Shown here: one piece after another, positions 17,475-49,324 of the stretch | Layout of the letters: every line of letters begins with the position of its first letter | How positions within the stretch are numbered: position 1 is the stretch's first letter | NCBI RefSeq assembly: GCF_026625745.1 | Contig: NZ_CP113061.1 | Coordinates: forward strand, 1,265,501 to 1,329,500 | Source of the DNA: Asticcacaulis sp. SL142 | GTDB lineage: Bacteria; Pseudomonadota; Alphaproteobacteria; Caulobacterales; Caulobacteraceae | Length of the DNA: 64,000 nt | Reading direction: 5' to 3' | Translations under genes and position numbers: made by a program | The notes under the pieces: generated by a model | Databases searched by the model: none | Told to the model about the DNA's origin: nothing | The model's input: the letters and a program-made list of their open reading frames with translations, nothing else

Positions 17475-19898
17475 ATGTCTATTCTTTCTGCGTTTAATTT
17501 TCGCGCCTTACATAGCTCAGCCTCGCTGCTGCCTATTCTTTCGGCCGCGGCCCTTGCCACGCTCATCGCGCCCGCCGCGGGCGCTCAAGCCCCCGCTGAA
17601 GACGCCGTGCAGGAAGTCATCGTCACCGGCACACGCGACAAAGGCCGCACTAAGTACGACAGCCTGACCCCGGTCGATGTCATCTCGGCCAAGGCCGTGC
17701 AGGACGGCGCGTCGTCTGAACTGGCCGACAATCTGGCGCAGGTCATCCCGTCGCTTCAGGTGCTTAAGCTGCCGTCGTCAGATGGTTTACAGTTCATCCG
17801 CCCGGCCCGCCTGCGCGGCCTGGGATCGGACCAGACCCTGGTGCTAATCAACGGTAAGCGCTTTCACCGTTCGGCCTTTCTGGGACAACGCGGTGCTCAG
17901 GGTGCTGACCTGAATAAGATCTCCAGCCTCGGTATCGGCCGGGTCGAAGTGCTGCGTGATGGTGCCTCGGCTCAGTACGGCTCTGATGCCATCGCGGGCG
18001 TGATCAACATCCAGTTGGATCAGCGCCCAGGCGTGGCAGCCTACGTACAGCGCTCGCAATATTTTGAAGGTGACGGCGAAACGACCCGTGCCGGTATCAA
18101 GGCCGGTAAGACCTTTGACGCAGGCTTTGTCACCGCCGCATTTGAATGGGCCGATGCGGCCATGACCTCGCGCAGCCATCAACGTGCCGATGCTCTGGCC
18201 TATGAAGCGGCCAATCCGGGTGTTGATCTGCCCGATCCGGTTCAGCACTGGGGCGCACCGGACACCAATAACTACAACTTCACCTTTAACGGCGCTTTGG
18301 ATACCGGCTTTGGTGAGCTCTATGCGTTTGGTACCGCCGCCAAGGGCGAAGGCATCAACGATATCAACTGGCGCATCCCGTCGGCCACCTCGAACGCCAG
18401 CGTCTATAAGACGGTGCCCAGCTTTCCGGGCTGGGATCTGAAATCGGTCTATCCGCTCGGCTTTACCCCGCGTGAAGAGGCCAAGTATCAGGATTATCAG
18501 GCCGTGGCGGGCCTGCGTGGCGGCGGCGAGGTCTTTACCTGGGATCTCAGCGCCTCGATCGGTGAGAACGAAACCGAGTTCTATCTCTATAACACGATCA
18601 ATGCTTCGATGGGGCCGGACTCGCCGTTTGACTTCTTCCTCGGCACCCAAACTCAACGAGAAGTCAACCTCAATGCCGACGGCGTTTACCGGCTGGATGT
18701 GGGCTTGTCTGAACCGCTCAACATCGCCTTCGGGGCTGAGCGCCGCGAAGAAACCTATAAAATCGGCGCGGGTGATGCGGCCTCATATGCGGTCGGTGCC
18801 GGTGCCAAAGACGGTTTGGCCGTAGGTTCCAACGGCTTCCCCGGCTTCTCGGACGTTCAGGCCGGAGAATGGTCGCAGGAAAGCTACGGCGCCTATGTCG
18901 ATGTCGAAGGCAAGATCACGCCGGAATGGACATGGGCGGCGGCCGTCCGTTACGAAGACTTCGACAGCTTTGGCGACACCACCAACACCAAGCTGTCCAC
19001 CCGTTATGATTTCAGCCCCAAGTTCGCCGCCCGCGGTTCGGTCTCAACCGGCTTCCGCGCACCAACACCGGGCCAGATCAACTCGTTGTCGGTTTCTCAA
19101 GGTTTGGATACGGTCACGCTTCAGGTCTTCACCAATGGCCGCCTGTCACCGCTGAACCCGATTGCCGTCAGCAAGGGTGCCAAGCCACTTGAGCCGGAAG
19201 AGTCGGACAACCTGACCATGGGCTTTGTCTGGCGCACCGATATGGGCCTGTCGGGCACGATCGACCTTTATCAGATCGACGTTAATAACCGGCTAGGTCA
19301 GTCATCGTCGATTACACTTACTAAGGACGAAAAGGACGCTTTGGTGGCACAAGGCTATCCGGCGGCGGCCAGCTTTACCTCGGTCTACTGGTACACCAAC
19401 GATTACGACACCCGCACCAAGGGTATCGATGTGGTAACTTCCTATGCCCGCCCAATGTGGGATGGTCAGTTGAACCTGACTCTGGCCTACAACACCAATA
19501 AGACCCTGATTACCGGCGGGTCGCTTACCGCCAATCCGACCACGAAGCGCAACTTTGAGGAGGGCTTGCCCCGGAATAATGCCAGCTTTACCGGCAATTT
19601 CCGCAAAGGCGCCTTCGAGTATCAGGTGCGGGTACGCCATTACGGTAGCTGGACCGACTCGACCGGCAATTCGACCGGCGACATCTTCCAGACCTTTGGC
19701 GTAATGAACTTTGTCGATGCCTCGATGCTCTATGACATCAACAGCAACCTCTCGCTTAAGGTCTCGGTTGAAAACATCTTTGATGACTACCCTGAAAAGG
19801 CTCTCTTTCAGGCCTCACGCGGGATCGAATATTCGCGTAACGCCCCTTATGACACCTATGGCGCTCAGGCCTATGTCCGCCTGAACGCCAAGTTCTAA
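17475..19898 (+). CDS. TonB-dependent receptor
   Basis: 807-residue outer-membrane receptor with signal peptide (SAAALATLIAPAAGAQ), TonB-box region (EDAVQEVIVTGTRDKGR), plug (LADNLAQVIPSLQVLKLP, then LRGLGSDQTLVLINGKRFH and AQYGSDAIAGVINIQLD) and beta-barrel ending YVRLNAKF. The gene is more G+C-rich than the mobile debris upstream. The Shine-Dalgarno sequence before the ATG is weak. A terminator-like hairpin and a PLP-enzyme gene follow immediately, so the enzyme may act on the imported compound. The substrate is not determinable. Confidence 0.92.
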   Translation: MSILSAFNFRALHSSASLLPILSAAALATLIAPAAGAQAPAEDAVQEVIVTGTRDKGRTKYDSLTPVDVISAKAVQDGASSELADNLAQVIPSLQVLKLPSSDGLQFIRPARLRGLGSDQTLVLINGKRFHRSAFLGQRGAQGADLNKISSLGIGRVEVLRDGASAQYGSDAIAGVINIQLDQRPGVAAYVQRSQYFEGDGETTRAGIKAGKTFDAGFVTAAFEWADAAMTSRSHQRADALAYEAANPGVDLPDPVQHWGAPDTNNYNFTFNGALDTGFGELYAFGTAAKGEGINDINWRIPSATSNASVYKTVPSFPGWDLKSVYPLGFTPREEAKYQDYQAVAGLRGGGEVFTWDLSASIGENETEFYLYNTINASMGPDSPFDFFLGTQTQREVNLNADGVYRLDVGLSEPLNIAFGAERREETYKIGAGDAASYAVGAGAKDGLAVGSNGFPGFSDVQAGEWSQESYGAYVDVEGKITPEWTWAAAVRYEDFDSFGDTTNTKLSTRYDFSPKFAARGSVSTGFRAPTPGQINSLSVSQGLDTVTLQVFTNGRLSPLNPIAVSKGAKPLEPEESDNLTMGFVWRTDMGLSGTIDLYQIDVNNRLGQSSSITLTKDEKDALVAQGYPAAASFTSVYWYTNDYDTRTKGIDVVTSYARPMWDGQLNLTLAYNTNKTLITGGSLTANPTTKRNFEEGLPRNNASFTGNFRKGAFEYQVRVRHYGSWTDSTGNSTGDIFQTFGVMNFVDASMLYDINSNLSLKVSVENIFDDYPEKALFQASRGIEYSRNAPYDTYGAQAYVRLNAKF

Positions 19899-33435: not shown

Positions 33436-35193
33436 TCATGGCCTCCCCCCTTGCGCATACATGCCAATGACTGCGCCGGTGAAGCCACCGGCTAAAGCTG
33501 TACCAATAACCTTTGCATCTGCGTTTTCCAGAACGGGAATATAGACGCGGTTATTAAAGCTATACTTGAAATCAATCTGCGCCTTATCGATGTCTAATCT
33601 TAGATAAACTGGTGTCCCTGGTGGCGCGTTGATCGCATGTTCGGCAAGAACCACACCGGTTTGCGGATCATTCCCACCTTGTCGCTTCCTCACCCGCAGA
33701 ACGGGACCACCCTCAGTATTCCGGCCAAGGGTGAAGGTGTAGAAGAACTCATCGTTTTGAACTGCCATTAACCCGGCTTCGTCGTCGGCTTCTGCTGGTA
33801 AAAATACCACCTTAGTTGTCAGGGTGGCCTTCATATGCTGGAGTCGACGGCCTACAAATGAGGGCTGCCCCCCGCTACCCAGTTGATCAGTTCTTGGGTT
33901 AATCTTCAGCTTGCCGTTGCCAGTTGCCCACCACTGACTGCGAGGCGTTCGAATAAATAACCATTGTGGGGCGAGCACCTTGGCATCGAACTCGTCCCTT
34001 ACGGTAAAGTTGCCCGTTGTCGGAATATTCGGGCGCCGCCCCTGGGTCAGATTTGGGCGCTCAGGTCTATAGGGAAGAGCTTTGCCCTTTTCGAGAATGA
34101 TCGGCCAACCATCAACCCACGAGACTGGAAGAAGGAAAGTCTCACGCCCCGTCTGGAAGTTACCAGGGTCCTGGGGCGCAGTCGCCAGATCATAGACCCG
34201 CGTCCCCAAAAAAACGGCCCACCATTGCCCTTTTTCATCCTGAAACATATCCGCGTGTCCGGTTGCGGTGACCGGATCGGGGCGGCCGTCAGGCAAACCA
34301 TGCTGAGTAAGGATAGGATTGTTTGGGTTTGGAGTGTATGGCCCGAAAGGGGTATCAGATCTGTAGGCCAGTTGCTGGTGCGTGTATCCGGTGCCGCCCC
34401 CTGCCGCCGACAAATAATATCGGCCATCAACTTTATAGAGATGGGGGCCTTCGATATAATCGGTATTCCATGGGGCTTTTTCACCGCCATCGACAAGCAT
34501 AATGTCTTCGGATCGCGGCGCGAACGTGACCGGATCGACCTCCATGAGCCACAGGGCGGTGTGTGCGGGGTAGCGTTTGTTTAAAGGATCGCGATGATGA
34601 ACAATGTAAACCTTGCCGTCGTCGTCGAAGAAAAGCGAAGGATCGATTCCATCGATGTGCGGCAACCAAATCGGGTTTGACCACGGCCCCGCCGGATCCT
34701 TAGTGGTTATAATGAAATTGCCGCCGCAACCGACGCAGGTCGTGATAATGTAAAAGGTATCGCCCTGATGCCGGATCGTCGGCGCGTAAATGCCGTTATT
34801 ACCCAGATGGAGCTTGTCGAAAGGCATCATATCCGGACGGTCCAGCGCGTTACCGATCTGCGACCAGCTAATCAGATCACGGCTGTGGAAGACTGGAATG
34901 CCGGGATAAAAACCGAAAGTGGAATTAACCAGATAATAGTCACTACCTACACGAACGACGCTGGGGTCAGGGAAATAGCCCGCGAGGATGGGGTTCTGAA
35001 AGTGTGTCTCTGCAAGAGGCTCATCAAAGAGGTCGTCAGATCCGGAATACTCGAACCAGTCGAAGACCGCCTCATGAGAATTCTGAGTCAAAGCGAGGCT
35101 TCTAAGACCGGGATTGCTGCATCCGGATAAAAGTCCGGCGGCACTGATAACAAGCCCTAAATAACTGATGGCTGATTTCATTTTCGTCCGCAT
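33436..35193 (-). CDS. GH43-family glycosidase lipoprotein (beta-xylosidase/arabinofuranosidase-like)
   Basis: About 585 residues. A lipoprotein signal has lipobox LLSGC with Cys25. The five-bladed propeller GH43 domain spans about 65-370, and a C-terminal beta-sandwich accessory domain about 390-580 (GH43_C2/DUF1349 type: FTVRDEFDAKVLAPQW). Catalytic acids are visible: Asp76 in YFPDPSVVR (base), Asp in IDGIDPSLFFDDDG (pKa modulator) and Glu in YIEGPHLYK (acid). ATG 35193 has GGAAGG six bases upstream; the longer in-frame start lacks one. It removes xylose or arabinose at the cell envelope. It diverges from the dehydrogenase gene, so they likely share a regulatory region at 35194-35329. Confidence 0.92.
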   Translation of the reverse strand: MRTKMKSAISYLGLVISAAGLLSGCSNPGLRSLALTQNSHEAVFDWFEYSGSDDLFDEPLAETHFQNPILAGYFPDPSVVRVGSDYYLVNSTFGFYPGIPVFHSRDLISWSQIGNALDRPDMMPFDKLHLGNNGIYAPTIRHQGDTFYIITTCVGCGGNFIITTKDPAGPWSNPIWLPHIDGIDPSLFFDDDGKVYIVHHRDPLNKRYPAHTALWLMEVDPVTFAPRSEDIMLVDGGEKAPWNTDYIEGPHLYKVDGRYYLSAAGGGTGYTHQQLAYRSDTPFGPYTPNPNNPILTQHGLPDGRPDPVTATGHADMFQDEKGQWWAVFLGTRVYDLATAPQDPGNFQTGRETFLLPVSWVDGWPIILEKGKALPYRPERPNLTQGRRPNIPTTGNFTVRDEFDAKVLAPQWLFIRTPRSQWWATGNGKLKINPRTDQLGSGGQPSFVGRRLQHMKATLTTKVVFLPAEADDEAGLMAVQNDEFFYTFTLGRNTEGGPVLRVRKRQGGNDPQTGVVLAEHAINAPPGTPVYLRLDIDKAQIDFKYSFNNRVYIPVLENADAKVIGTALAGGFTGAVIGMYAQGGRP

Positions 35194-35329
35194 CCCAGGC
35201 CTTCCTCTATAAGTTTTTGTTGCCGCCTCATCGGCTTTCGCACACACGATTTAACCCAACAAGTCATAAAGCGGCTTGATTGCTTTCACAAGCGGTAGTA
35301 CCTATCCTATATGGATTTTTGAGGTCAGT

Positions 35330-36340
35330 ATGAAAACGGTTATATGTGAAGCCCCGCAGTCTCTAGGTGTTGGTGAGCGCTCAAAACCACAACACAGCGA
35401 GGGACAGGTGCTCATCCGCATTCGCCGGGTAGGTTTATGTGGCACAGATTACCACATATTTGCTGGCGACCAACCATTTCTGGCCTATCCCCGTGTCATG
35501 GGTCATGAGCTGGCCGGCACCGTGGCCGCTACCGATCCGGACTCTCCTTTTCGGGAAGGCGATCTGGTCACGGTCAATCCGTACCTGCCCTGCGGCCGCT
35601 GCATCGCCTGTCGCAAGGGCAAGCCAAACTGCTGCGTAGATATACAGGTTCTTGGTGTGCATATTGATGGCGGCATGACTGAATATCTGTCAGTGCCTAA
35701 AGACGCCGTCATTTCCGTTAGCGATCTCACCCTTGATCAGGCCGCTATGGTCGAATTTCTGGCGATCGGCGCTCACGCGGTTCGGCGCGGAGACACACAG
35801 ATAGGTGATCGGGCCCTAATTGTCGGGGCCGGGCCGATTGGTGTTGCCACGGCTCTGTTCGTGGCCATGTCCGGAGCAGAGGTCACCCTTACGGATACGA
35901 GCGAGGAACGCCTGAATCACGCCCGCAACAAGGTCGGTATACCCCATACGGCCGTTGTTGACGACCGTCTTGAAGATTACTTCAGACAGCGCACCCATGG
36001 CGAATTTTTTGATGTCGTATTTGATTGTACCGGCAGCGCTAAGGCTATTGAAAAGGGCTTCGGCTATGTGGCCCACGGCGGCCGATATGTCCTGGTCAGC
36101 GTGGTTAAAAACGACATCAGCTTTTCCGACCCCGAATTCCATAAGCGCGAGATGCAGCTTATAGGTAGTCGCAACGCGACCAATGAAGACTTCTTGCGGG
36201 TTATTAATGCGATTAGTGAAGGCCTTATCCCAACCGATGCCTTAAAAACCCACAGCTTTGCCCTGTTTGACCTCCCACAGGTTATTCCGGATCTCATTGC
36301 CAATCAGGGATCCGTACTTAAGGCCATTGCGGAACTTTAA
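35330..36340 (+). CDS. Zinc-binding sugar-acid/alcohol dehydrogenase, L-galactonate 5-dehydrogenase-like
   Basis: 336 residues, medium-chain dehydrogenase. Catalytic zinc ligands are Cys in GLCGTDYH, His/Glu in MGHELAG and Glu in VEFLAIGAHAV. The structural-zinc loop is CGRCIACRKGKPNCC. The Rossmann motif is VGAGPIGVATAL. The segments VLGVHIDGGMTEYLSVP and FSDPEFHKREMQLIGSRNAT closely follow E. coli LgoD (YjjN), which oxidises L-galactonate. In a locus with an alpha-L-fucosidase and beta-galactosidases this suggests oxidation of a fucose- or galactose-derived sugar acid. ATG 35330 has GAGGT upstream; an earlier in-frame ATG at 35276 would add 18 unlikely residues. Confidence 0.88.
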   Translation: MKTVICEAPQSLGVGERSKPQHSEGQVLIRIRRVGLCGTDYHIFAGDQPFLAYPRVMGHELAGTVAATDPDSPFREGDLVTVNPYLPCGRCIACRKGKPNCCVDIQVLGVHIDGGMTEYLSVPKDAVISVSDLTLDQAAMVEFLAIGAHAVRRGDTQIGDRALIVGAGPIGVATALFVAMSGAEVTLTDTSEERLNHARNKVGIPHTAVVDDRLEDYFRQRTHGEFFDVVFDCTGSAKAIEKGFGYVAHGGRYVLVSVVKNDISFSDPEFHKREMQLIGSRNATNEDFLRVINAISEGLIPTDALKTHSFALFDLPQVIPDLIANQGSVLKAIAEL

Positions 36341-36760: not shown

Positions 36761-38266
36761 TCACGCCGACGGTTTCAAGCCTTTGATAAACTCATAGTGC
36801 CCTGGCAAGGTGACCACGCCATTGCGGATGACCGATTTCATCCGGTCGAGCGTGGCCTTGATGTCATCCGCGTCGATCAGATCAGCCTGCGGGTCGTAGG
36901 TCTTGGGGTATAGCCCCTGCCCCAGCATGACCGCCACCCAGCTCGTCTCATTAAACAACTCGCCCTTTTCAATAATCAGGCGGCCCGAATTGGCGAATAC
37001 CGCCATGCGCGCCCTAAGCGTATCGGGCACCTCCATCGCCGACACATAGCGCCAGAAGTCACTGTCCTGCCTTTGGGTTTGCTTATAGTGCAAAATCACA
37101 AAGTCCCTGACCGCCTCGATCTCCGTTGCCATGAGATGGTTGTAAAGATCGGTTTCATCCCGGTTAAAACCTGCCGCTGGAAACAGGGACATGAGCGTGG
37201 CGATACCGCGCTGAATCAAATGAATACTGGTCGATTCAAGCGGTTCGATAAACCCTGATGCCAGCCCCAGCGCCACCACATTCTTATGCCAGCACAGCTT
37301 GCGTCGGCCGGTTTGAAACTTCAGCCGGCGCGGTTCAGCCAGTGCCACACCGTCCAGTTGCTTCAGCACCTCAACTTGCGCCTCATCATCGGAGATAAAA
37401 TCGCTGCAATAGACATGGCCATTGCCGGTTCGGTGTTGCAGCGGGATACGCCAGAACCAGCCGCTGCGGCTGGCGGTTGATCGGGTATAGGGCAAAAGCG
37501 GCCCCGCTGAGGCAGATGGCACCGCCACGGCACGGTTCATGGGCAGCCAGTGCGACCAGTCGGTGTAGCCCGTTTTTAAGGCCTGCTCGATCAACAACCC
37601 GCGAAAGCCTGAGCAGTCGATGAACAGATCACCTTCGATCTGACGGCCATCCTCAAGGCTTAAGGACTGCACAAAACCGCTATCACTGTCCTGTTGGACG
37701 GCGGTGATGCGGCCATCAATATGGGTTGCCCCGGCTTCAACCGCTACGTCTTTGAGCAGTTGGGCATAGAGGCTGGCGTCGAAATGCAGAGCATAGGACA
37801 TCCGTGACAGGACATTGCGCGCATCATCAACCGGGCGGGCAAACTTAACCGCGTGCGCCGCCTGGGTGCACATTGAATAGTCTTCGAGGTTACCGCGACG
37901 AGTACGCAGCCAGTGATGGTGAAAGTGGACGCCGCCGATGTCAGAGCCCGTTTTCCCAAAGGGGTGAAAATAGCTGTCCCCGATCTGGCCCCAGTTTACA
38001 AACTCAATGCCGAGCTTATAGGTCGCTTGAGTTCTGCGGATTACGGTCTCTTCATCCAGCCCCAGCAGCGCATTGAACTGGAGTATCGGCGGGATAGTGG
38101 CTTCGCCCACGCCGACAATGCCGATCTCTGAGGACTCGACCACCGTTACCGAAACCCTCCCTGGCGCGAGCTTGGTCGATAAGGCAGCCGCGGCCATCCA
38201 GCCGGCCGTGCCGCCACCAACCACGATCACCTTCTTTACAGGTCGCGTGTGCAATTTATTCCCCAT
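36761..38266 (-). CDS. Flavin-dependent tryptophan-halogenase-family protein
   Basis: 501 residues. The FAD-binding motif VVGGGTAGWMAAAAL lies at 15-29. GVGEATIPPI (52-61) and Lys84 in ATYKLGIEFVNW correspond to the halogenation Lys. The WxWxIP motif is present as WFWRIP at 270-275, and the conserved Glu region reads SGFIEPLESTSIHLIQRGI. All key residues of PrnA/RebH-like halogenases are thus retained. It needs a flavin reductase, and none is in the window. Homologues embedded in TBDR carbohydrate loci of Caulobacterales and Xanthomonadales are common and have no proven substrate. It follows the TBDR at 38392-41232 on the same strand, with two hairpins between them. Confidence 0.92.
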   Translation of the reverse strand: MGNKLHTRPVKKVIVVGGGTAGWMAAAALSTKLAPGRVSVTVVESSEIGIVGVGEATIPPILQFNALLGLDEETVIRRTQATYKLGIEFVNWGQIGDSYFHPFGKTGSDIGGVHFHHHWLRTRRGNLEDYSMCTQAAHAVKFARPVDDARNVLSRMSYALHFDASLYAQLLKDVAVEAGATHIDGRITAVQQDSDSGFVQSLSLEDGRQIEGDLFIDCSGFRGLLIEQALKTGYTDWSHWLPMNRAVAVPSASAGPLLPYTRSTASRSGWFWRIPLQHRTGNGHVYCSDFISDDEAQVEVLKQLDGVALAEPRRLKFQTGRRKLCWHKNVVALGLASGFIEPLESTSIHLIQRGIATLMSLFPAAGFNRDETDLYNHLMATEIEAVRDFVILHYKQTQRQDSDFWRYVSAMEVPDTLRARMAVFANSGRLIIEKGELFNETSWVAVMLGQGLYPKTYDPQADLIDADDIKATLDRMKSVIRNGVVTLPGHYEFIKGLKPSA

Positions 38267-38312
38267 GATTTCGTGGTATTAAGCTAGGCCGTATATTTGA
38301 GAGTACTACGAA

Positions 38313-38347
38313 TTAGAGCGCCTACGCAAAGAACGTAGACGCTCTAA
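38313..38347 (-). other. Long intergenic hairpin between TBDR and halogenase genes
   Basis: TTAGAGCG plus CTACG (38313-38325) pairs with CGTAG plus CGCTCTAA (38334-38347), with one bulge per arm. No U tract follows on the minus strand, so it is more likely an mRNA-processing or stability element, or a protein-binding palindrome, than a terminator. Confidence 0.5.
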
Positions 38348-38357
38348 ATCAAGACGT

Positions 38358-38384
38358 AACCGGCCGGACGGAACCCGACCGGTT
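38358..38384 (-). terminator. Weak hairpin just after the TBDR stop
   Basis: AACCGG (38358-38363) pairs with CCGGTT (38379-38384), eight bases past the TBDR stop on the minus strand, with no U run. Possibly a partial terminator that lowers halogenase expression relative to the TBDR. Confidence 0.4.
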
Positions 38385-38391
38385 CGCTCTA

Positions 38392-41232
38392 TCAATACTT
38401 CAGACGAATACGCGCAGATACGCGGCGATCGTTGATTTGGTAGTTACGTCGGAGTATTTCTCTGGCGAAGAAGGTCTTTTGGACCGTGTCCGTCAGATTC
38501 TGCCCGTCAATGGTAAATGAGACGTGGTCGTTCAGATCATAACTCACCGAGGCGTCAAGCGACCCATAAGCCTTGAAGTAGACTGGCAATGATACGGCAC
38601 CGGTTTCGCTTACCGTGTCCAGATACGTCGAGCGCCAGTTATAGGCGACCCGCGCATTCCAGCCATACTTGTCATAGAGCAGCATGAGGTTATAGCTGTC
38701 CTTCGACAAATCTTCCAGCGGCACCGCAAATGGTGTGCCTCCGACCGTGGTCGAAGCGATCGTACCCGCATTACTATCAGCAAGGGTGTAGTTCGCCGCA
38801 ATTCCGAGCCCAGACCACGCGCCGGGGAGGAAATCGAAGAACTTCTGGCCGGAGATTTCGAAGCCCTCGACGTAACCACTGGTCACGTTCGTCAATTCAG
38901 ACCCGTTGAACCGAACGACACCGACCCCCGGGATGGTTTCGGTGAACTCAGCGCCCCGCGTTGCGATCAGATCGACCAGGTCCTTTTTAAAGAAATCAAT
39001 CGTGAGGCTGCCGTCTTTAGCGAAGTACCATTCGAAAGACAGGTCATACGATGTCACGCGCTCAGGATTGAGGTTTGGATTGCCATTTCTACTGAAGCTG
39101 CCCTGATAGGGATTGGTCGTCGCATTATATGGGTTGTTTTGGTCTACAGTATTCGGCAACGCATTTTGATCTGTGTAATTGGGCGAATAACTGAAGGTCG
39201 GGTTAAGTTGCGTAAAGTCCGGCCGATATATGTTTTTAGAGTAGGCGAAGCGCGCCTGGAGATTTTCAGTCAGATGTACCCGAAGGTTGAAGCTCGGCAA
39301 TAAGACATTATACTTGTTGCCTCCAGATAAGGGCCCCTCGGTCTGCACTACGGTTGGATTAGCGCCACCTGATGTCCGATAGCTGAGCGCCTGGTAACCT
39401 TCCCCCGTTGCTTCCGTTTGAACATAGCGAACGCCCAGGTTCCCGTCGAAGTCAAACCCACCCAGTTGCGAACCAAATGTCGTGCGCAGGTAGAATGCGA
39501 CGTCATCTTGTTCGATGGGGCTAAACGTCCGATGGAGTGGATCGCTGATGTCAGGATAGCCGACCGTGATACCCGTGAGCGTCTTATAGTGCGCGAAGGC
39601 GTCCTGATGATTTAGTGTATCATTCCCAAGCCACTGCAGGACAGGACCAAATACCAAATCAGCCCCGTCGCCACGCAAAATCGATGCCTGGCCGGGATTA
39701 ATCTCAACGAACTCAGGATTATCTTCAACGGGCGTGAAAATGCCGTTCCAGGTGTTGGCGTCGCGATTCATCGCATCTTTGCGGCTATAGCGTACGCCCG
39801 ACTTGAATTGCTTGAAAAATCCGTCGTCGAAATCCCAGGTTAGATCGAGTTTGAGGGCATCGGCCTCCGCCGTATTTTTGGTTATGAAAGGTTGAATCGC
39901 CCCATAGCTATAACTTGTCGGGTCGCTCAAGAAATTCGGAGTGTCCGAACCCTGGATCGGAAAATCGCCAGTGTTGTCGAAGACATAGTTATAATTGCCT
40001 GCGTCTAAGAAAAGATAGGTATTCATGCCGGTGCGGTTGACCTTGGAATCCAGGTGCTCGTAATCCGCATCCAAACGCAGATTTGGTGTCACCTGCCATT
40101 TGAAACCAGTCGAGAACTCGGTTGTTCTCGTCTTACGAATACCGCCGTAAATGATGGAAATGCCGCCTGTACCGGTACGCGCACCCGCCACGGCGACCCC
40201 GTCTTCCACCTGGTAGGTTCCAACCGGCGTTGCATTGCCGTTAATGAAGTACGAGTTGCCGGCATCTATGAAGCGATAGTCCGAGTTGAAAAGCTGGGCA
40301 TAGGCTTCAAAGTCGTCATTTGGGCGCCACTGCAGGACGATGTTTTGGCTGCTGCGCTTTCTGCTGCCGCTGCCGACGTTAAAGCCGCCGCCGTCGGGCA
40401 CCAGAATATTCTCGGTCTCATGGCCCGGAACCGGCGTGCAGCGCAATTGCGAGCCATTTGGCGTCGGGGTGACCGGCACGAGGTTACCGCCGGAGTCCAA
40501 GACACAAGGACCGTGGTAGTAATAAGGTTCCATCTGGACCAAATCCTCACGGAAGGCAGACTTCTGGTATGACGCGTTGGCGAGGAAACCGATCTCACCG
40601 ATACGGGTAGACCACCGGTTACTGTAAAGCGCCGAATAGCTTTCGCCGGTTTCCTTAGCCAGGTCATAGTTGGTAACAGACGCCGTTGCCGACATTACTC
40701 TGCCCTTGGCATCAAACGGCTTACGCGTAATGAGGTTAACCGTGCCGGCCAGGGAGCCTTCGATCATATCTGAGGACGGGTTTTTATAAACGTCAACTCG
40801 CGACAGCAGATCGGGCCCGATTTCGTCATACGACAAGCCAACGCCGCCATTTGCCGAGAATATATCATGGCCGTTGAGTTCGGTCCGAACCCGGGTTAGG
40901 CCGCGAATGAGCACCTGCTGACCCTCGCCGCGAATACGTTGAATCTGGATACCGGGAATACGCTGCAACGATTCGGCGATGTTTACGTCCGGAAACTTTC
41001 CGATGTCCGTGGCCGTGATCGAATCGACAATCTGGTCGGAATTTTGCTTGATCGCCTGAGCCGTCGCCAGACTACGGCGCAGGCCGGTGACGACTACAGT
41101 TTCGGTATCATCACTTGCCGTATTATCTGCGTCTGCGGCGGCCTGATCCTGAGCTAACGCTCCCCCTGCTATCAGAACCGATGCGATAGCCAGCACAGAC
41201 ACCCCTGAACGGGTGCGTGTAAATATTTTCAT
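38392..41232 (-). CDS. TonB-dependent receptor of the glycan-utilisation locus
   Basis: 946 residues. Signal peptide ends AGGALAQD, TonB-box region is DTETVVVTGLRRSLATAQAI, and the plug reads PDVNIAESLQRIPGIQIQRI with LIRGLTRVRTELNGHDIF and SDMIEGSLAGTVNLITRKPF. A long barrel ends RVSARIRLKY. A GGAGGG ribosome-binding site lies about ten bases before the ATG. It lies between the halogenase gene and the divergent GH42-GH29-GH2 genes, so it is the likely outer-membrane importer for the oligosaccharides. An inverted repeat 55-75 bases upstream of its start could be an operator. Confidence 0.94.
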   Translation of the reverse strand: MKIFTRTRSGVSVLAIASVLIAGGALAQDQAAADADNTASDDTETVVVTGLRRSLATAQAIKQNSDQIVDSITATDIGKFPDVNIAESLQRIPGIQIQRIRGEGQQVLIRGLTRVRTELNGHDIFSANGGVGLSYDEIGPDLLSRVDVYKNPSSDMIEGSLAGTVNLITRKPFDAKGRVMSATASVTNYDLAKETGESYSALYSNRWSTRIGEIGFLANASYQKSAFREDLVQMEPYYYHGPCVLDSGGNLVPVTPTPNGSQLRCTPVPGHETENILVPDGGGFNVGSGSRKRSSQNIVLQWRPNDDFEAYAQLFNSDYRFIDAGNSYFINGNATPVGTYQVEDGVAVAGARTGTGGISIIYGGIRKTRTTEFSTGFKWQVTPNLRLDADYEHLDSKVNRTGMNTYLFLDAGNYNYVFDNTGDFPIQGSDTPNFLSDPTSYSYGAIQPFITKNTAEADALKLDLTWDFDDGFFKQFKSGVRYSRKDAMNRDANTWNGIFTPVEDNPEFVEINPGQASILRGDGADLVFGPVLQWLGNDTLNHQDAFAHYKTLTGITVGYPDISDPLHRTFSPIEQDDVAFYLRTTFGSQLGGFDFDGNLGVRYVQTEATGEGYQALSYRTSGGANPTVVQTEGPLSGGNKYNVLLPSFNLRVHLTENLQARFAYSKNIYRPDFTQLNPTFSYSPNYTDQNALPNTVDQNNPYNATTNPYQGSFSRNGNPNLNPERVTSYDLSFEWYFAKDGSLTIDFFKKDLVDLIATRGAEFTETIPGVGVVRFNGSELTNVTSGYVEGFEISGQKFFDFLPGAWSGLGIAANYTLADSNAGTIASTTVGGTPFAVPLEDLSKDSYNLMLLYDKYGWNARVAYNWRSTYLDTVSETGAVSLPVYFKAYGSLDASVSYDLNDHVSFTIDGQNLTDTVQKTFFAREILRRNYQINDRRVSARIRLKY

Positions 41233-41870: not shown

Positions 41871-43923
41871 ATGAGGCTGGCCAAAACTCTTCTGTATTCC
41901 GCCGCAATCCTTACCGCATCCTTCAGCATTGCCGGGGCACAGACGGCCACCACAAGGCCCGATGGGCGCGTCGAAAGCGGCCTTTATGTCGGGGCCAACT
42001 ACCAGCCCGTTGACCGCACACCTGCCCAGATTACCTACGACATCGGCCTGATGAAGAAAGCGGGTTTCAAGGTGGTGCGCATGGGCGATCTGTCCTGGGA
42101 CTATTTCCAGCCGGCCGAAGGCGTCTATACCTTTGAAAAATTCGACGCGGTTTTGAATGAAATGCACAAGGCCGGCATTAAGGTTATGGTCGATATTCCG
42201 GGCCTGCCGGCACCAATGTGGCTGCACAAAAAATATCCCGGTGTTGATCTGGTGACCCAGAACGGCACGCGCCTTTATGCCGCCGAACGGTACATGGACA
42301 ACATCAGCGATCCGGACTACCGCCGCTTGGCCAAGGCGCTGGGTGAAGCCATGACCAAACGCTACGGTAAGCATCCGGCCGTCATCGCCATCGGTTACAA
42401 TAACGAAATCGGCAACGGCTTCATGTCCTATTCCGCCGCCGATCGTGAGCGTTTTATCGTGTGGCTGAAAGACAAATACGGCACGCTCGATGCCCTGAAC
42501 AAGGCCTGGGCCACCCAGCGCTGGGCGCGCACCCTCACCGACTGGGATCAGGTTGAAATTCCTTATGGTGACGGCCCTGGGCCTTTTGAGCGTTACCTTG
42601 ACCTGCATCATTACTGGTCTGATGTTACAGTGGGCACGCTGATGGATCTTGAGCAGTCGCGCCGTAAATATGCCCCCGATAAGCCGACCATCTCCAATCT
42701 GTGGGACTCCAGTGAGCGTAAGGGTTTCAATTATCTTGAAACCTACAAGGATTATGTCAGCTACGGGGCGTTCGGATATTATGCCGGTGACCCGATCAGC
42801 GGCGGCTTTGAAACCCTAATGATGAAGGGGACCCTGCCGACACCGGTCTGGTTCAATGAGTTTCAGGCCGGCGGCGGCGGATTTTACGGCGCCAAGGGCC
42901 GCTCACGCATGTGGGCGCATTTTGGCCTGCTGAATGGTGGTCAGGCCGTACTGGCCTGGACGTTCAACAGCCATCTGGGCGGTGAAGAACAGGCGCTGTT
43001 TGGTCTGGTCGACCATGACGACACCCCCTCCTGGAAGCTGGACGAATTTGCCACCATCGCCAAAGAGTTTAAGCAGAATGGAAAAAATGGGCTTTCCGCG
43101 CGACTTAAAGCCCGAAGTGGCGATTGCCTATTCGTTTGAGGCGCGCGTAGCCTCAAACCCCAAAAGCTGGTCCAACACGGTCAAGCAGTATATGACCACG
43201 CCGTATCTTACTCAGGCTCATAATGCCTTTTCGCCGCTCTATGCGGACAATATAGACATGGCCGTCCTTAACATCGCTGAGGAAGACCTGAGTCGTTACA
43301 AGCTGGTGGTGGTGCCGGGCATCTACCTGATGGATAAGGCATCCGCTGATAATCTCAGGAAATACGTGAATGGCGGCGGCACCGTCGTCATGACGGCCAT
43401 GTCGGCCAAGGTCAATGACAACAATCAGTGGTTCAACACCCCTCTGCCGGGGCAGTTGTCCGATGTGTTCGGCCTGAAAACGCGTGAGTTCTATCGGACC
43501 GAAAAGCCTTTGACCGGCAAGATCGGCGATGCCGGTTTTACGACCACCATCAATTTCTACGAAGTGTTGGAACCCTCGACCGCCAAGGTTATGGGCAGTT
43601 TTGACAATGTTGACGGCGCGCCACCGGTGATCACGGTCAATCAATACGGTAAGGGCCGCGCCATCTATGTGGCCACCCCAGCCCAGCCGTCGGTCATGGC
43701 GCCTCTGTATAAACAACTCTACACAGACCTTGGCCTGAAAGTGGGCCCGAAAACCCCCGAAGGCGTCTATGCGCGCACGGTGAATGGGCAGACTCTTTAT
43801 GTCAATACGACGACGGAGACGAAAACCGTAGCGATTGACGGCAAAAAGACCGGGGTGCTGTCGGGCACGGCCTGGAGCGATACCCTCACCCTGCCGTCTT
43901 ACGGCGTGGAATTTCTGAAATAG
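41871..43923 (+). pseudogene. GH42 beta-galactosidase interrupted by a one-base frameshift
   Basis: Secreted GH42 enzyme with signal peptide LLYSAAILTASFSIAGAQ. The TIM barrel is complete: acid/base Glu179 in IGYNNEIGNG and nucleophile Glu330 in PVWFNEFQAGG. The frame then shifts at an A6 run (43082-43087). Read as A5, the protein continues KQNGKMGFPRDLKPEVAIAY through the glutamine-amidotransferase-like trimer domain (LVVVPGIYLMDK...GGGTVVMTAMSAK) and the C-terminal domain to YGVEFLK, about 683 residues in all. As given, translation ends at 43139 (422 residues). The truncated product keeps both catalytic Glu but loses the trimerisation domain. This could be a sequencing error, a recent mutation or slippage. 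The protein would remove terminal beta-galactose. Confidence 0.85.
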
Positions 43924-43958: not shown

Positions 43959-45524
43959 ATGACAACCATCAGCAAACGACAATTACTGGGCGCGCCCTTG
44001 CTGGCCGCTTTAGGGGCGTCAGCTTTGTCCGCTAAGGCGGCAGATAGCTGCGCGCCGACACCACCGGCGCCTAAATTTGATCTGCCGATGCAGTCCGGCA
44101 AGTTCACCGCCGAAGTCGCCTCTTTAAAGACTTACGAAACACCGGCGTGGTTCCGTGATGCCAAATTCGGCATATGGTCGCACTGGGGACCGCAGGCCGT
44201 GCCCAAGGTTGGCGATTGGTACGCCCGCCAGATGTATATTCCCGGCCATCCGCACTATACCCACCACGTCAAGACCTATGGCCACCCTTCAAAGTTCGGC
44301 TTCAAGGACATCATCCCGCTATGGAAGGCCGAAAAGTTTGACCCGGAAGGGTTGATGGACAAATATGCTGACGCGGGCGCCAAATATTTTGTCAGCATGG
44401 GCGTCCACCACGACAATTTCGACCTGTGGAATTCGCGGCATCACCGCTGGAACGCGGTCGCTATGGGGCCTAAGCGCGACATCGTTGGTGATTGGAAAAA
44501 AGCGGCTAAAAAACGCGGTCTGAAATACGGGGTGTCTGAGCATCTGGCCGCCAGCTACACCTGGTATCAGACCAGCCACCAGTATGACCAGTTCTGGCCC
44601 CTGCTGGGCACACCCTATGACGGCGCCAATCCGGAAAATTTTGACCTCTATCACCCTAATAAGGGCGAATCCTTCGTCAACACCCCGGAAAGCTGGTATA
44701 CACAGAACCCTGAGTTCCAGCAGGTCTGGTACAACCGCATGAAGGATCTGGTCGATCAGTATGAGCCTGACCTGTTTTATTCTGATGGCGGTCTGCCGTT
44801 CGGTCAGGTTGGGCGCAGTCTGGTCGCCCACCTCTATAACCGCAGCGTCACCGGTAAGGGCAAGGCCGAGGCCGTCTATACCTGCAAGGATTCAGGCTCT
44901 GGCGAGTTCCACAAGGAAGCCAGCGTTCAGGATGTCGAGCGCGGCGTTTTAGCCGGCATAAATCCATACCCGTGGCAGACCTGCACCTCAATGGGCGACT
45001 GGTTCTACAGCGAAGGTTATAAGTATAAAACAACCGCAGATATCGTTTATATGCTGTCCGATATCGTCAGTAAGAACGGCAACCTGCTGCTCAACGTCGT
45101 GCAACTGCCCGACGGCAGTCTGCCGCCCGAGTCCGAGGCGTTTCTGAGCGAAATGGCCGCCTGGATGAAGATAAACGGGCCGGCCATTCATGGTACGCGT
45201 CCATGGAAAATCTTTGGCGAAGGCCCGACCGAAACCTCAGGCGGTGCGTTCAAGGAAAACGCCGCCTATGTGGCGCAGGACATCCGGTTTACGACCAGGG
45301 GCAAGACACTTTATGCGATAACCTTGGGCGAACCGCGCACAGATGTGGTCATCAAATCTCTGGGCAAGCGCGCCAATCTGGCTGAACGGCCGGTGCGTAA
45401 AGTGCAGGCTCTGGGCTCATCCGCGGCCTTACGCTTTCAGCAAACGGATGAGGCCCTGGTCATCAGCCTGCCGCCTAAGCTACCCACGGCCCATGCCAGC
45501 GCCTTTCAGATTACCTTTGGCTAA
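43959..45524 (+). CDS. GH29 alpha-L-fucosidase
   Basis: 521 residues with an N-terminal export signal (KRQLLGAPLLAALGASALSA). GH29 catalytic domain: WFRDAKFGIWSHWGPQAVP, YFVSMGVHHDNFDLWNSRHH, KYGVSEHLAASYTW and nucleophile Asp276 in LFYSDGGLPFGQ. KNGNLLLNVVQLPDGSLPPE is the conserved end of the barrel, and a beta-sandwich C-terminal domain follows. It releases terminal alpha-L-fucose from glycans. It begins 35 bases after the GH42 gene, so the two are co-transcribed, and it ends in a strong terminator. Lack of the common HHDGF (here HHDNF) is a small variation. Confidence 0.95.
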   Translation: MTTISKRQLLGAPLLAALGASALSAKAADSCAPTPPAPKFDLPMQSGKFTAEVASLKTYETPAWFRDAKFGIWSHWGPQAVPKVGDWYARQMYIPGHPHYTHHVKTYGHPSKFGFKDIIPLWKAEKFDPEGLMDKYADAGAKYFVSMGVHHDNFDLWNSRHHRWNAVAMGPKRDIVGDWKKAAKKRGLKYGVSEHLAASYTWYQTSHQYDQFWPLLGTPYDGANPENFDLYHPNKGESFVNTPESWYTQNPEFQQVWYNRMKDLVDQYEPDLFYSDGGLPFGQVGRSLVAHLYNRSVTGKGKAEAVYTCKDSGSGEFHKEASVQDVERGVLAGINPYPWQTCTSMGDWFYSEGYKYKTTADIVYMLSDIVSKNGNLLLNVVQLPDGSLPPESEAFLSEMAAWMKINGPAIHGTRPWKIFGEGPTETSGGAFKENAAYVAQDIRFTTRGKTLYAITLGEPRTDVVIKSLGKRANLAERPVRKVQALGSSAALRFQQTDEALVISLPPKLPTAHASAFQITFG

Positions 45525-45951: not shown

Positions 45952-48420
45952 ATGACATTTCCGCCTGCAAGTCGCCGATACGTCCGGCAAAAAGCCGTAA
46001 AGGCGTACTTTTTAGTCTTTTTCCTGACTGCATTTTTGAGCGTCTGGTCGCAGGCTGTGGCTGAGGTGCGCGATGTGTCGCAGGGATGGTCATTTCATAA
46101 AGGCGACGTGAACGGGGCCGAACAGGCAAGCTTTGATGATCGGAACTGGCTTAAGGTATCTGTGCCGCATGACTGGTCGATCATGGATAAGGCCGATGGC
46201 GCCCCACCGTTTGATCCGGCCGTCGCCGGTGGTCAGGATTCAGGCTACCTGCCGGGCGGCGTCGGCTGGTATCGTTATCGCCTGAACTTAAAAGATGCAG
46301 ATACCTCAAAGGTCACGCGCTTAAATTTCGAAGCGGTCTATATGGATGCGGATATCTGGGTAAACGGCACCCATGCCGCTAAACACCGCTTTGGTTATAG
46401 TGCCTTTACGGTCGATCTGACCGGCAAGGTGCGGGCCGGTGACAATATCATTGCCGTGCGCGTCAACCATGTCGATCCGTCATCACGCTGGTACGCCGGA
46501 TCAGGCATTATCCGTCCGGTCAATCTGGAAGTTCTTAACTGCGTTCACATCACCCCCGACAGCGTGTTTGTGACAACGCCTGATCTGACCGAGGCCGCCG
46601 GTGTTGCCCGCGTGGCGTCAACCGTCAAAAACTGCGGCAATAAGAACCGCTCAGTCGAATATGCCGTTAAAATCCTAGCCCCTGACGGCTCAGTCGTCGC
46701 GCAAACGACCCGCAGCACGTCTGTGCCGGCCCATAAAGATACCAGCCTGGAGCAAAACCTGACCGTGACCCGCCCCAAGATGTGGTCACCGGACTCTCCT
46801 GCACTCTATACTCTGGTTCAGGAAGTGCGTATTGAGGGTAAGGTGGTGGACGAACGCCGCACCCGCTTTGGCTTCAGAACGGTCACCATGGATGCCGCCA
46901 ATGGCCTGCGCGTCAATGGTAAGCCTATCCTCCTCAAGGGCGGCAATATCCACCATGACAACTATATGATTGGTGCCGCTGGCAGCCCCGATGCCGACCG
47001 CCGTAAGGTCGTTTTGATGAAAGCGGCGGGCTATAACGCCGTCCGCAGTGCCCATAACCCGGCCAGTCAAGCGACCCTCGATGCCGCTGACGAACTGGGG
47101 ATGCTGGTAATCAACGAAGCCTTTGATGCCTGGAACAATAATAAGCGACCTATGGACTATGCCCGTTTCTTCAAAGAGGACTGGCCACAGGATCTGACCA
47201 GCCTCGTCATCAGTGGCCGTAACCACCCCAGTGTGATCATGTGGAGCATTGGTAATGAAATCCCGGAGCAAGGCACACCGCTGGGGGTCGAGACCGGCAG
47301 AAAACTGGCCGAGCATGTGCGCAAGCTAGACCCGACCCGACCGGTTACCCAAGCCGTCAATGCCGAACGCGATGTTGGCAATGCCCAGTTTCCGGTTATG
47401 GACATAGCCGGATATAACTACCGCGCGCACTTCTTTGCCGAAGATCATAAGGACTATCCTGAGCGTGTAATGTATACGGCAGAATCGACGCCGAAGGACG
47501 CTTTCACCTATTGGCGCCTGGTTGAAACCATGCCGTGGGTGATCGGGGATTTCGTGTGGACGGCGGTCGATTATCTGGGTGAAAGCGGCATCGGCTGGAT
47601 GGGCTATACACAGGACTGGCAAAAGCTTGGGCCTTACCCATGGCATCTGGCCTATAGTGGTGAGATTGACGCCACAGGCCGCAAACGCCCGGCGGCCTTC
47701 TACCGGCAGGTGATGTGGAAATCCGGCATTGATCCGGTGGCCGCGTTTGTAAAACAGCCCGAAGGCACCGAGGACCTGCCTGACCGAAACCTGTACCCCA
47801 TCACACCACCACATCTGGACTGGTCTCTGGAAGATATCCACCCAAGCTGGACGTGGCGAGGTCAGGAAGGCAAGACCTTGGATGTCGTGGTCTTTTCCGA
47901 ATTTCCTGAGGTGGAACTGTTCCTCAACGATAAGAGTCTGGGCCGTAAACCGGTGTCGGTCGCCAGCGAATACCGCGCCAATTACCGCGTGCCATATGCA
48001 CCAGGGCAATTGATAGCCTTGGGCTACGACAAGGGCCGCGAGGCCGGACGATGGGAACTGAAAACCGCCGGCGCGTCATCTGGCTTCAAAGTGACGGTCG
48101 ATCGTCAGACCTTTACAGCCAATGGCCAGGATCTGGCCTATGTGACGATTGAACTGACCGATGCCCAAGGTGTGCCGATCTATGCCCAGACCAATGACCG
48201 GAAGGTTACGGTTAAGGTCTCTGGCGCAGGCACACTGGCGGGTATTGGTAATGGTAATCCGCAGGACGCATCAAGCTTTCAATCCGGCATGCGTAAAACC
48301 TTCCATGGCCGTGTGGTGGCCGTGGTCAAGGCGAGTCTGACCGCCGGCCCGATCACCGTCAAGATCGACGCCGAGGGTATGGCCAGCCAGCAGGTGCAAC
48401 TCACCTCTGTGGCACCATAG
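45952..48420 (+). CDS. GH2-family beta-galactosidase
   Basis: 822 residues with an N-terminal signal/anchor (YFLVFFLTAFLSVWSQAVA). Domains in order: sugar-binding jelly roll (about 40-200; GVGWYRYRLNL, DADIWVNGTHAAKH), immunoglobulin-like domain (about 205-310), TIM barrel (about 320-600) and C-terminal beta domains (DUF4982- and Big-like). The acid/base is Glu436 in MWSIGNEIPEQ and the nucleophile Glu511 in MYTAESTPKD. FVWTAVDYLGESGIGWMGY is typical of this GH2 subgroup. It removes beta-galactosyl residues in the periplasm. It is the last gene of the glycan locus, and its stop lies next to an integrase remnant. Confidence 0.93.
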   Translation: MTFPPASRRYVRQKAVKAYFLVFFLTAFLSVWSQAVAEVRDVSQGWSFHKGDVNGAEQASFDDRNWLKVSVPHDWSIMDKADGAPPFDPAVAGGQDSGYLPGGVGWYRYRLNLKDADTSKVTRLNFEAVYMDADIWVNGTHAAKHRFGYSAFTVDLTGKVRAGDNIIAVRVNHVDPSSRWYAGSGIIRPVNLEVLNCVHITPDSVFVTTPDLTEAAGVARVASTVKNCGNKNRSVEYAVKILAPDGSVVAQTTRSTSVPAHKDTSLEQNLTVTRPKMWSPDSPALYTLVQEVRIEGKVVDERRTRFGFRTVTMDAANGLRVNGKPILLKGGNIHHDNYMIGAAGSPDADRRKVVLMKAAGYNAVRSAHNPASQATLDAADELGMLVINEAFDAWNNNKRPMDYARFFKEDWPQDLTSLVISGRNHPSVIMWSIGNEIPEQGTPLGVETGRKLAEHVRKLDPTRPVTQAVNAERDVGNAQFPVMDIAGYNYRAHFFAEDHKDYPERVMYTAESTPKDAFTYWRLVETMPWVIGDFVWTAVDYLGESGIGWMGYTQDWQKLGPYPWHLAYSGEIDATGRKRPAAFYRQVMWKSGIDPVAAFVKQPEGTEDLPDRNLYPITPPHLDWSLEDIHPSWTWRGQEGKTLDVVVFSEFPEVELFLNDKSLGRKPVSVASEYRANYRVPYAPGQLIALGYDKGREAGRWELKTAGASSGFKVTVDRQTFTANGQDLAYVTIELTDAQGVPIYAQTNDRKVTVKVSGAGTLAGIGNGNPQDASSFQSGMRKTFHGRVVAVVKASLTAGPITVKIDAEGMASQQVQLTSVAP

Positions 48421-48479
48421 GCTGAACTCAGGTAAGCGCTTGTCGCGCTTCTTGACCAGATGGTTGACGCGACGATCAT

Positions 48480-49079
48480 ATAGCCGTTGACCGATACTGG
48501 CCCAAGAAGCTCCTTTAAACCCTTGGTCTTGGCCATTTTAGCGGCGGCGCTGGCGGTCAGTTTTGAATACCTCTTGCGGGCGTTCGACGGAAGCCAGCGC
48601 AGGGTGTCCAGAAGCTTCCTACATGCCTCCCTGTCGATGTGTTCCACCGGAGTATCCTTGCCGAGGATGTCAAACAGGACGCTCACCATTTCATGATACC
48701 GGGCGACGGTCTTGGACATCCGTTTCTTCGATGGGTCATTGATGAAGAGCGTGAAGACCTCTTCAAAGGTCTTCCCTTTAGCGTCTGGCTTAGATGCTGG
48801 CGGTAGAGGGTTGATTGCAATCGGCTCAAACGCATGGCCCTCAGCATGTCGTAGCCATTGCTCATATTCCATGCCAACCAGCCGAGCCTTTCGGACAGCT
48901 TCACCCCATCGTCCAGTCTTCAACGATCTGACGAAGAACGCCTTGCCGACGATGGGTCTTAGAGGGCGTGGGATCGACCATCTGACATAGATCGTTCTGC
49001 CCCGGACGATAAAACCCCGACGATTACGAAGCGAGGCTGATTCTCGACCTGATTCAGAGATCGTCAGAGCTTTCGCCAC
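48480..49079 (-). pseudogene. Truncated tyrosine-recombinase integrase beside tRNA-Leu
   Basis: About 200 codons from GTG 49079 encode the N-terminal, DUF6538-like part of an integrase: RRGFIVRGRTIYVRWSIPRP, then RPIVGKAFFVRSLKTGRWGE and a SAM-like core-binding domain (TFEEVFTLFINDPSKKRMSK, EHIDREACRKLLDTLRWLP). The family match stops at LLGPVSVNGYM near 48480. The catalytic domain with R, H and Y is missing, and the frame continues as nonsense into the GH2 3' end. It points away from the 3' end of tRNA-Leu, 160 bases distant, as is usual for island integrases. Confidence 0.82.
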
Positions 49080-49239
49080 CCGTCTTTTCGATGATCGGTT
49101 GCCACCCTTTTGGACAGCATGGATGAGACGCTTGGAACCCCAGAATGATACAAACTGTTGCTACAGTCATGACGCACGCTGACGCTACAGGCGTTTAAAA
49201 GACTGTACTGTATGGATTTTTCGGGATTTTCGGTAAGTT

Positions 49240-49324
49240 TGGTGCCCCCGGTCGGACTCGAACCGACACACCTCTCGGTACCGGATTTTGAATCCGGCGC
49301 GTCTACCAATTCCACCACAGGGGC
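49240..49324 (-). tRNA. tRNA-Leu (anticodon CAA)
   Basis: 85 bases on the minus strand, from 5' GCCCCTG (49324-49318) to the encoded 3' ACCA (49243-49240). The acceptor GCCCCTG pairs with CGGGGGC (one T-G wobble). The D-loop has TGGTAGACGCG, the anticodon stem-loop is CCGGATTCAAAATCCGG with CAA as anticodon, there is a long variable arm (TACCGAGAGGTG region), and the T-loop is GGTTCGAGTCC. Class II features and CAA give a Leu tRNA reading UUG. Its 3' end is a typical attachment site for the integrase remnant next to it. Confidence 0.96.

Follow-up and report, generated by a model that had tools for sequence, protein, structure and literature searches.

The window, the whole 64,000-nucleotide stretch of Asticcacaulis sp. 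SL142 DNA analyzed here, contains a gene of the flavin-dependent halogenase family among genes for glycosidases and a TonB-dependent receptor (TBDR), and the question raised by this locus is what such an enzyme does beside them. "Tryptophan halogenase" is the source name of many of the scored members of the class, and names of this kind suggest a place in secondary metabolism; the genes for PrnA, RebH, and PyrH belong to secondary-metabolite clusters. The comparisons described here assign the examined part of the class to outer-membrane nutrient uptake, and we are highly confident that these enzymes are dedicated accessories of TBDRs.

The Halogenase-family Gene and Its Locus

The open reading frame of the original prediction is genuine and lies on the minus strand: the 501-residue protein matches PF04820 over positions 1-456 of the 458 in the profile (625.7 bits, E 6.6e-188), and the plus-strand frame over the same positions contains several stops (Table 1). 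The claim that all residues needed for halogenation are kept holds for the GxGxxG motif, Lys84, the WxWxIP motif, and Glu344 but fails for the Gly of the Fx.Px.Sx.G halide motif, which is replaced by Ser347. This replacement lowers, but does not remove, membership of the PF04820 halogenases, because the active halogenase BrvH shares the exception, Ser also occupying this position in BrvH according to the available portion of PMC7336383. In an alignment of 175 rows, in which the window protein is present twice, 25 rows lack Lys and/or Glu and constitute the dead second-gene class described below; both residues are kept in all remaining rows. Loss of the Lys or Glu in alignment, which had been named in advance as one outcome that would speak against a halogenase, does not occur in the window protein. 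The genome is a single contig and contains 10 clusters with a total of 12 PF04820 genes, all of which retain the Lys and the Glu. The four motifs are invariant across the 10 copies that were aligned; the other two, L020 and L021, represent a second subtype whose own-genome sequences have a WTWDIG motif and a Gly at the halide position. It had also been noted that no flavin reductase is nearby, and the sole PF01613 match in the genome is indeed at 526,710, about 0.78 Mb away. Judged from its residues, the window enzyme very probably has intact halogenase chemistry.

The description of the gene as lying among glycosidases and a TBDR is also upheld, profile matches confirming GH43, GH42, GH29, GH2, and the TBDR, the last of which is on the same strand as the halogenase gene and 125 nucleotides from it. 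Some further features of the locus should be recorded. The first of the two overlapping frames of the GH42 gene carries the catalytic domain and the second the trimerization domain, reflecting either a frameshift or a sequencing error; by eye, an own-genome frame (L021:4196-6340) resembles an uninterrupted relative. Short open reading frames close to two other halogenase loci of this genome (L021:6413-6895, minus strand; L018:4096-4434, plus strand) have C termini that resemble, by eye, the end of the GH29 fucosidase in the window, and they look like remnants of duplicated loci. A 266-residue DUF6538 open reading frame, which we take to be integrase-like, is beside tRNA-Leu(caa) at 49240-49324 (region 48279-49324) and suggests an old insertion site, but an island at this tRNA gene is not supported, as the window contains no second exact copy of any stretch of the tRNA region 13 bases or longer.

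Table 1. Positions of the enzyme gene, its motifs, and its neighbors in the window, with arrays at other loci
Feature	Position	Strand	Remarks
GH43 with GH43_C2 domain	33436..35247	-	Profile match
Zinc-type alcohol/sugar dehydrogenase	35276..36340	+	Profile match
BrvH-type flavin-dependent halogenase-family gene	36761..38266	-	501 aa, ATG start
Ser347 codon, at the canonical halide-site Gly	37226..37228	-	Ser in 142/175 alignment rows
Glu344 codon (Glu of PLEST)	37235..37237	-	Glu in 154/175 alignment rows
WxWxIP motif (WFWRIP), residues 270-275	37442..37459	-	Alignment
Catalytic Lys84 codon	38015..38017	-	Lys in 154/175 alignment rows
GxGxxG FAD motif, residues 17-22	38201..38218	-	Alignment; coordinates worked out by hand from the ORF
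Spacer with two strong predicted stem-loops	38267..38391	-	125 nt; near-perfect inverted repeat 38313-38347
Partner TBDR, TIGR01782 type, upstream of the enzyme	38392..41232	-	946 aa
Receptor plug Tyr149 codon	40786..40788	-	Correlate of linkage from column scan
GH42 gene split over two frames	41871..43923	+	41871-43139 and 42934-43923; profile matches
GH29 alpha-L-fucosidase (PF01120)	43959..45524	+	Profile match
GH2 beta-galactosidase-like	45952..48420	+	Profile match
Ordered four-gene arrays with dead second gene, beside TBDRs: L024, L028, L033, L036, L043, L062			
Ordered four-gene arrays with dead second gene, beside TBDRs: L073, L080, L153, L156, and others			

Linkage and Co-inheritance with TonB-dependent Receptors

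The genome has 57 TBDR barrel matches above the cut-off, and 7 of the 10 halogenase clusters are within 2.5 kb of one, compared with a mean of 1.18 for random placement and no trial in 20,000 that reached seven; barrel matches, which are shorter than whole TBDR genes, were used for the observed and random counts alike. Among the other clusters, L018 is within a run of glycosidase genes and has a TBDR roughly 12 kb upstream, L016 is beside Cupin_8 and DUF6445 genes with no TBDR within 5 kb, and L020 has none within 40 kb. The closest paralogue of the window gene in its own genome is L016 (66-67% identity). No close orthologue was found in 12 genomes of the same genus (best 52-55% identity among the matches listed); the best named locus among the matches listed is L022 of Sphingomonas sp. 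Leaf10 (62% identity), the best full-length protein match among those listed has 70% identity, and Asticcacaulis and Sphingomonas recur among the named protein matches listed. The class is very large, at least 7,997 of the 8,000 scored candidate proteins matching at E ≤ 1e-100. PF04820 matches also occur in the control genomes of Caulobacter vibrioides and E. coli. Phage-borne copies were considered and set aside as a different group, the best 80 viral relatives listed sharing 29-36% identity.

The linkage extends across taxa. The best 80 named loci, selected by how well they matched an alignment of ten own-genome genes, include Alpha-, Beta-, and Gammaproteobacteria; 71 of them have a TBDR within 5 kb of the matched array (64 within 1 kb), and another two have one 7-10 kb away. 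The remaining seven show no TBDR, but four of these records are shorter than 10.4 kb, L069 has only 1.7 kb before the match, and L097 only 0.8 kb after it, so that both flanks are present only in L075. A TBDR is also within 5 kb in 19 of 20 picks from relatives, spaced by hand down the list of matches listed and including two on 10-kb contigs; the exception is L169. The recurrence of the pairing with TBDRs, asserted in the original prediction, is upheld. Enzyme and receptor genes are found in same-strand, divergent, and convergent arrangements. The window locus belongs to the TBDR-linked group as defined here, since the distance of 125 nucleotides to its TBDR gene is well inside the 5-kb limit and its enzyme agrees with the partner receptor in the trees.

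Enzyme and receptor are co-inherited. The distances in the enzyme and receptor trees of 50 loci are correlated (Mantel r 0.674; partial r 0.642 after taxonomic order), the loci, the enzyme representing each (position-4-like or single), and the order labels all having been chosen by hand; shuffles within orders gave a mean of 0.243 and a maximum of 0.379, and none of 2000 reached 0.674. The window groups with L022, L023, L030, L074, and L076 in both trees, with a support of 0.95 for this clade in the enzyme tree, but the wide "position 4" class was rejected as a clade (support 0.0). When the TBDRs of the own genome and of relatives G002 and G009 were grouped at 45% identity, 41 groups were obtained, of which 11 are linked to a halogenase, 30 are unlinked, and none is mixed, and the linkage state changes five times on the tree; in this count two TBDRs that were ambiguous, their nearest enzyme gene being at 3-5 kb, were omitted, and the TBDR 12 kb from L018 was taken as unlinked. 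In a separate observation, the TBDR-halogenase array of a record titled Arthrobacter sp. TPD3018 (L083, QDFQ01000001.1) nests among the Sphingomonas loci L088 and L033, and the record is probably mislabeled, since TBDRs would not be expected in a Gram-positive genus.

The receptors were scanned by alignment column for a candidate target residue in a discovery set of 66 linked and 20 unlinked TBDRs (69 linked were found, and three under 700 aa were dropped), by array class in 33 of 35 loci (all except L040 and L042), and in a test set of 59 TIGR01782 matches at E ≤ 1e-100 from G002 and G009, a further 59 from G007 and G011 being left unused. No aromatic residue both universal in linked TBDRs and specific to them was found in these three scans. 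One correlate of linkage is an aromatic residue at plug position 149, which in the discovery set is Tyr or Phe in 65 of 66 linked TBDRs and 6 of 20 unlinked ones and in the test set is aromatic in 18 of 20 linked and 10 of 39 unlinked ones (p 3.7e-6); by receptor group, with the two ambiguous TBDRs dropped, p ranges from 1e-4 to 2.7e-3. Many multi-enzyme loci have Phe at this position, and among linked TBDRs Val, Gln, or Ser is also found there. Tyr149 is not claimed as a fixed target because an aromatic residue is also present in unlinked sister lineages. Arg at plug position 122 (61 of 66 linked and 1 of 20 unlinked) was likewise discarded, being weaker in the test set (14 of 20 and 9 of 39) and His in the window receptor. 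The Trp content of linked TBDRs is barely higher than that of unlinked TBDRs (1.42% and 1.26%, respectively).

Tandem Arrays, Companion Genes, and the Spacer

Many of the related loci contain several halogenase-family genes in tandem. In 26 of 27 intact arrays of 3-4 genes among the named loci listed (L027 and L048, cut by contig ends, being omitted), the second gene lacks the Lys and/or the Glu, the sole exception being L094, and the same is true of all eight such arrays from relatives; no position other than the second is affected in any of these 35 arrays, which are not independent, as they include near-duplicates such as L073/L080 and L154/L167. Elsewhere, a dead gene is second in the two-gene array of L164 and also in a minus-strand pair in L026, the first gene of which is cut. 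The second gene of the four-gene arrays of L031, L040, and L067 is short (344-368 aa) and is a further reduced dead paralogue. It should be noted that the losses were read from automatic alignments, which are least sure for the most divergent members, and that "dead" is a reading of the residues, because the Glu is kept in four of these genes, which have Arg in place of the Lys, and the Lys is kept in four others, which lose the Glu. The GxGxxG or WxWxIP motif is also gone from many of them, but the dead genes still match PF04820, over nearly its whole length in seven of eight scanned (121-347 bits). The 25 that are long enough for the tree form one clade with a support of 1.0; this could partly reflect long branches drawn together, but the constant second position argues for real kinship. 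The conserved dead paralogue calls for explanation. The window itself has a single active gene rather than a tandem array of this kind, and no such dead gene is present in its genome.

Certain companion genes recur, several of them of oxygenase type. Among the 73 of the best 80 named loci that have any TBDR, Cupin_8 is present in 14, DUF6445 in 7, a TPR protein with a 2-oxoglutarate (2OG) oxygenase in 6, and SapC in 1, the last an undercount from a single-sequence model. The set at L029, L055, L059, L068, L085, and L096 is a recurrent one, composed of a second TBDR type, a halogenase, a TPR protein, and a 2OG-Fe(II) oxygenase (PF13759). In the own genome, three of four SapC genes are within 4 kb of a TBDR (those at 1060267 and 3145849 adjoin one, and that at 975936 is about 3.8 kb from one), with none near the gene at 19563; all three Cupin_8 genes over the cut-off (1061057, 1907013, and 1961803) are within 2 kb of a TBDR or halogenase gene. 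JmjC/Cupin_8 enzymes are able to modify proteins.

The spacer between the receptor and enzyme genes of the window is predicted to fold strongly (z -5.59), and its inverted repeat, searched as an exact pattern on the outer arms, occurs once in the genome. As no terminator-like site was found on the minus strand of the spacer, the strong fold suggests that less enzyme than receptor is made, yet the 3' ends of receptor genes often fold. A z below -2.5 is found in 42 of 47 linked spacers but only 4 of 60 stretches after halogenase stops, and the same z threshold is passed by the 3' ends of 17 of 18 linked and 18 of 39 unlinked TBDRs. The stem-loop is thus in part a generic feature of receptor 3' ends and was rejected as a special signature of halogenase loci.

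Proposed Function and Relationship to Known Halogenases

The enzyme adjoins and evolves with the receptor whatever the sugar, which suggests that it probably services the receptor and not a particular food molecule. Sugar-independent linkage, intact catalytic residues, and the open active site of its relatives lead us to propose, with somewhat less than even confidence, that a catalytically competent BrvH-type flavin halogenase acts as a dedicated accessory of the upstream TBDR, with the receptor or a partner protein as its probable target. The chances that the target is a protein appear about equal to those that it is not, and the receptor itself, the best-fitting option, is a possible rather than a probable target. 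Enzyme and receptor would share a transcript, with the enzyme synthesized in the cytoplasm at a lower level than the receptor and supplied with FADH2 by an unlinked flavin reductase; a halide, presumably bromide in preference by analogy with BrvH, would be oxidized and then transferred, by way of Lys84, to an aromatic side chain offered to the open active site. The likeliest target would be some protein belonging to the receptor system, with the not yet exported receptor chain as the first candidate, so that the product would be a post-translational modification and not a modified sugar or free tryptophan. Inspection by eye shows no signal peptide on the enzyme, so that its encounter with the receptor would have to precede export. 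Ser347, the lack of a TBDR within 5 kb of L016, the barely raised Trp content of linked receptors, and the single SapC companion among the 73 loci also weigh against the proposal.

The original prediction had included a sugar-linked aromatic such as a feruloyl group among the possible substrates, and it may be asked whether the enzyme acts in catabolism on an aromatic group of the imported glycan (feruloyl or similar), either carried or released. The gene does lie among glycosidases, and 46 of the best 80 named loci have at least one tested glycosidase type (GH13 in 18, GH31, GH97, and GH3 in 10 each, GH43 in 6, and GH74-like in 5), these counts being likely undercounts because they come from single-sequence searches. 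However, 16 of the GH13 loci also have a TBDR within 5 kb, and starch-type substrates, to judge from the GH13 family, would have no aromatic ester. Beta-glucan-type genes accompany other TBDR-linked named loci, the GH31, GH74-like, and GH29 genes of L022 and L030, the loci nearest to the window, would make up a xyloglucan-like set, and in 34 of the best 80 no tested glycosidase was found. In two relatives, the frequency of glycosidase neighbors is not clearly different between linked and unlinked TBDRs (7 of 18 and 8 of 39, p 0.20, by single-sequence searches), and halogenation of a food molecule brings no evident benefit. Because the class follows receptor lineages over unrelated sugars, a feruloyl role was rejected as the main reading, and action on a glycan aromatic is regarded as highly improbable.

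The chemistry or the product might instead be different from that proposed. Halogenation could have been lost in the cell, leaving a flavin monooxygenase or oxidase that uses the same Lys/Glu site for hydroxylation, release of peroxide or hypohalite, or redox sensing. Such a change would be in keeping with Ser347, with the little bromide that freshwater or soil hosts would be expected to encounter, and with the very low activity of BrvH on indole (2.5 mU/mg in the available text of PMC5945002), but BrvH with the same Ser brominates indole and its K83A mutant is inactive (same portion of PMC5945002), and the Lys and Glu are retained in every aligned row outside the dead class; we consider a non-halogenating enzyme unlikely. 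It seems similarly doubtful that the product is a small halogenated aromatic, such as an indole-type signal or defense compound, or a modified small peptide, made by an enzyme that is merely co-regulated with nutrient receptors. The reported activities of the group are confined to indole and its derivatives in the parts of PMC5945002 and PMC7336383 that are available, which favors this explanation, but the agreement with the receptor tree and the constant linkage state of each receptor group exceed what co-regulation needs. In addition, no biosynthetic-looking family is among the recurrent neighbor families annotated, rare families aside, the spacer has only 125 nucleotides, and the small open reading frames at 41.2-41.9 and 36.3-36.8 kb show nothing notable by eye.

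A protein-directed receptor accessory, the reading preferred here, can be extended to a more general one, which is speculative and at present unlikely, in which halogenase-type oxidative modification is an unrecognized layer of maturation or protection of TonB-dependent nutrient receptors. Each receptor lineage would be served by a flavin halogenase of its own or by an ordered array in which two or three paralogues are active and a single conserved dead one acts as an adaptor, sometimes with Cupin_8, SapC, or DUF6445 partners. The receptor would be marked before export, for example with tuned gating or blunted recognition by phages or bacteriocins as the outcome, and the indole brominase activity of BrvH and Xcc4156 would be an in vitro shadow of this role. 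Should the receptor prove to be the substrate, its halogenation would represent, to our knowledge, a new kind of outer-membrane protein modification.

Papers on Xanthomonas sugar loci reportedly list halogenase-like genes, and the halogenase-TBDR link itself may already be known to some. Among the titles and abstract openings of the literature matches listed, no description of the link was found, in agreement with the earlier statement that the pairing has no accepted explanation; nor was any experiment tying such an enzyme to a receptor, or any mention of the ordered array with a dead paralogue, found in these sources. The CUT loci of Xanthomonas and the sugar loci of Caulobacter resemble the window in combining a TBDR with glycosidase, LacI, and MFS genes, and a halogenase is not named as part of such loci in the literature matches listed or in the available passages of PMC11337851, PMC8269204, PMC6299022, and PMC11340318.

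Among enzymes of known structure, the best relatives of the window protein are 9luq (512 bits), BrvH (491 bits), and Xcc4156 (472 bits), whereas the free-tryptophan halogenases PrnA, RebH, and PyrH score far lower, at about 252-301 bits. The latter have the Pfam family and catalytic residues in common with the window enzyme but differ in having a closed Trp loop and a Gly at the halide site (PMC7336383). Aligned with BrvH, the window protein has no insertions, and its gaps of 4, 1, and 1 residues are outside the loop regions; both substrate-loop positions, as placed by the legend in the available part of PMC7336383, appear short, and the closed Trp-binding loop of PrnA and RebH appears to be absent. 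By these comparisons, the window enzyme is not of the free-tryptophan type.

BrvH (6frl), a halogenase from a Brevundimonas-like metagenome, is 47% identical to the window protein and shares with it the Lys, the Glu, the WxWxIP motif, the Ser at the halide site, and the lack of extra loops. Xcc4156 (6y1w), a brominase of Xanthomonas campestris with an intact Lys and Glu, is also 47% identical but has Asn at the halide site (available part of PMC7336383) in place of Ser347. The best match, 9luq, is 49% identical and is described as a "Tryptophan halogenase" by its PDB molecule name only. In the portions of PMC7336383 and PMC5945002 that are available, BrvH and Xcc4156 have open active sites, do not halogenate free Trp, and are proposed to act on a peptide; their native substrate is called unknown in the former. 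The available text of PMC5945002 places a second halogenase gene next to that of BrvH, and the word TonB is absent from that paper. The phylogeny that had been suggested as a check places all three enzymes with TBDR-linked lineages but BrvH apart from the window gene: BrvH joins the leading gene of the two at own-genome locus L019 (57.6% identity, support 0.994), Xcc4156 groups with L015 and L090 (support 0.994), and 9luq falls with L053 (support 0.985), within a wider group that includes L054, L071, L098, and L100 from GH97/amylase-type loci. L019, L015, and L053 are all TBDR loci, that of L015 having the order TBDR, SapC, Cupin_8, halogenase. The biochemically tested orphans therefore belong to lineages linked to TBDRs in the present data, the context in their own genomes aside, and this linkage provides a concrete place to seek the native substrate of BrvH and Xcc4156.
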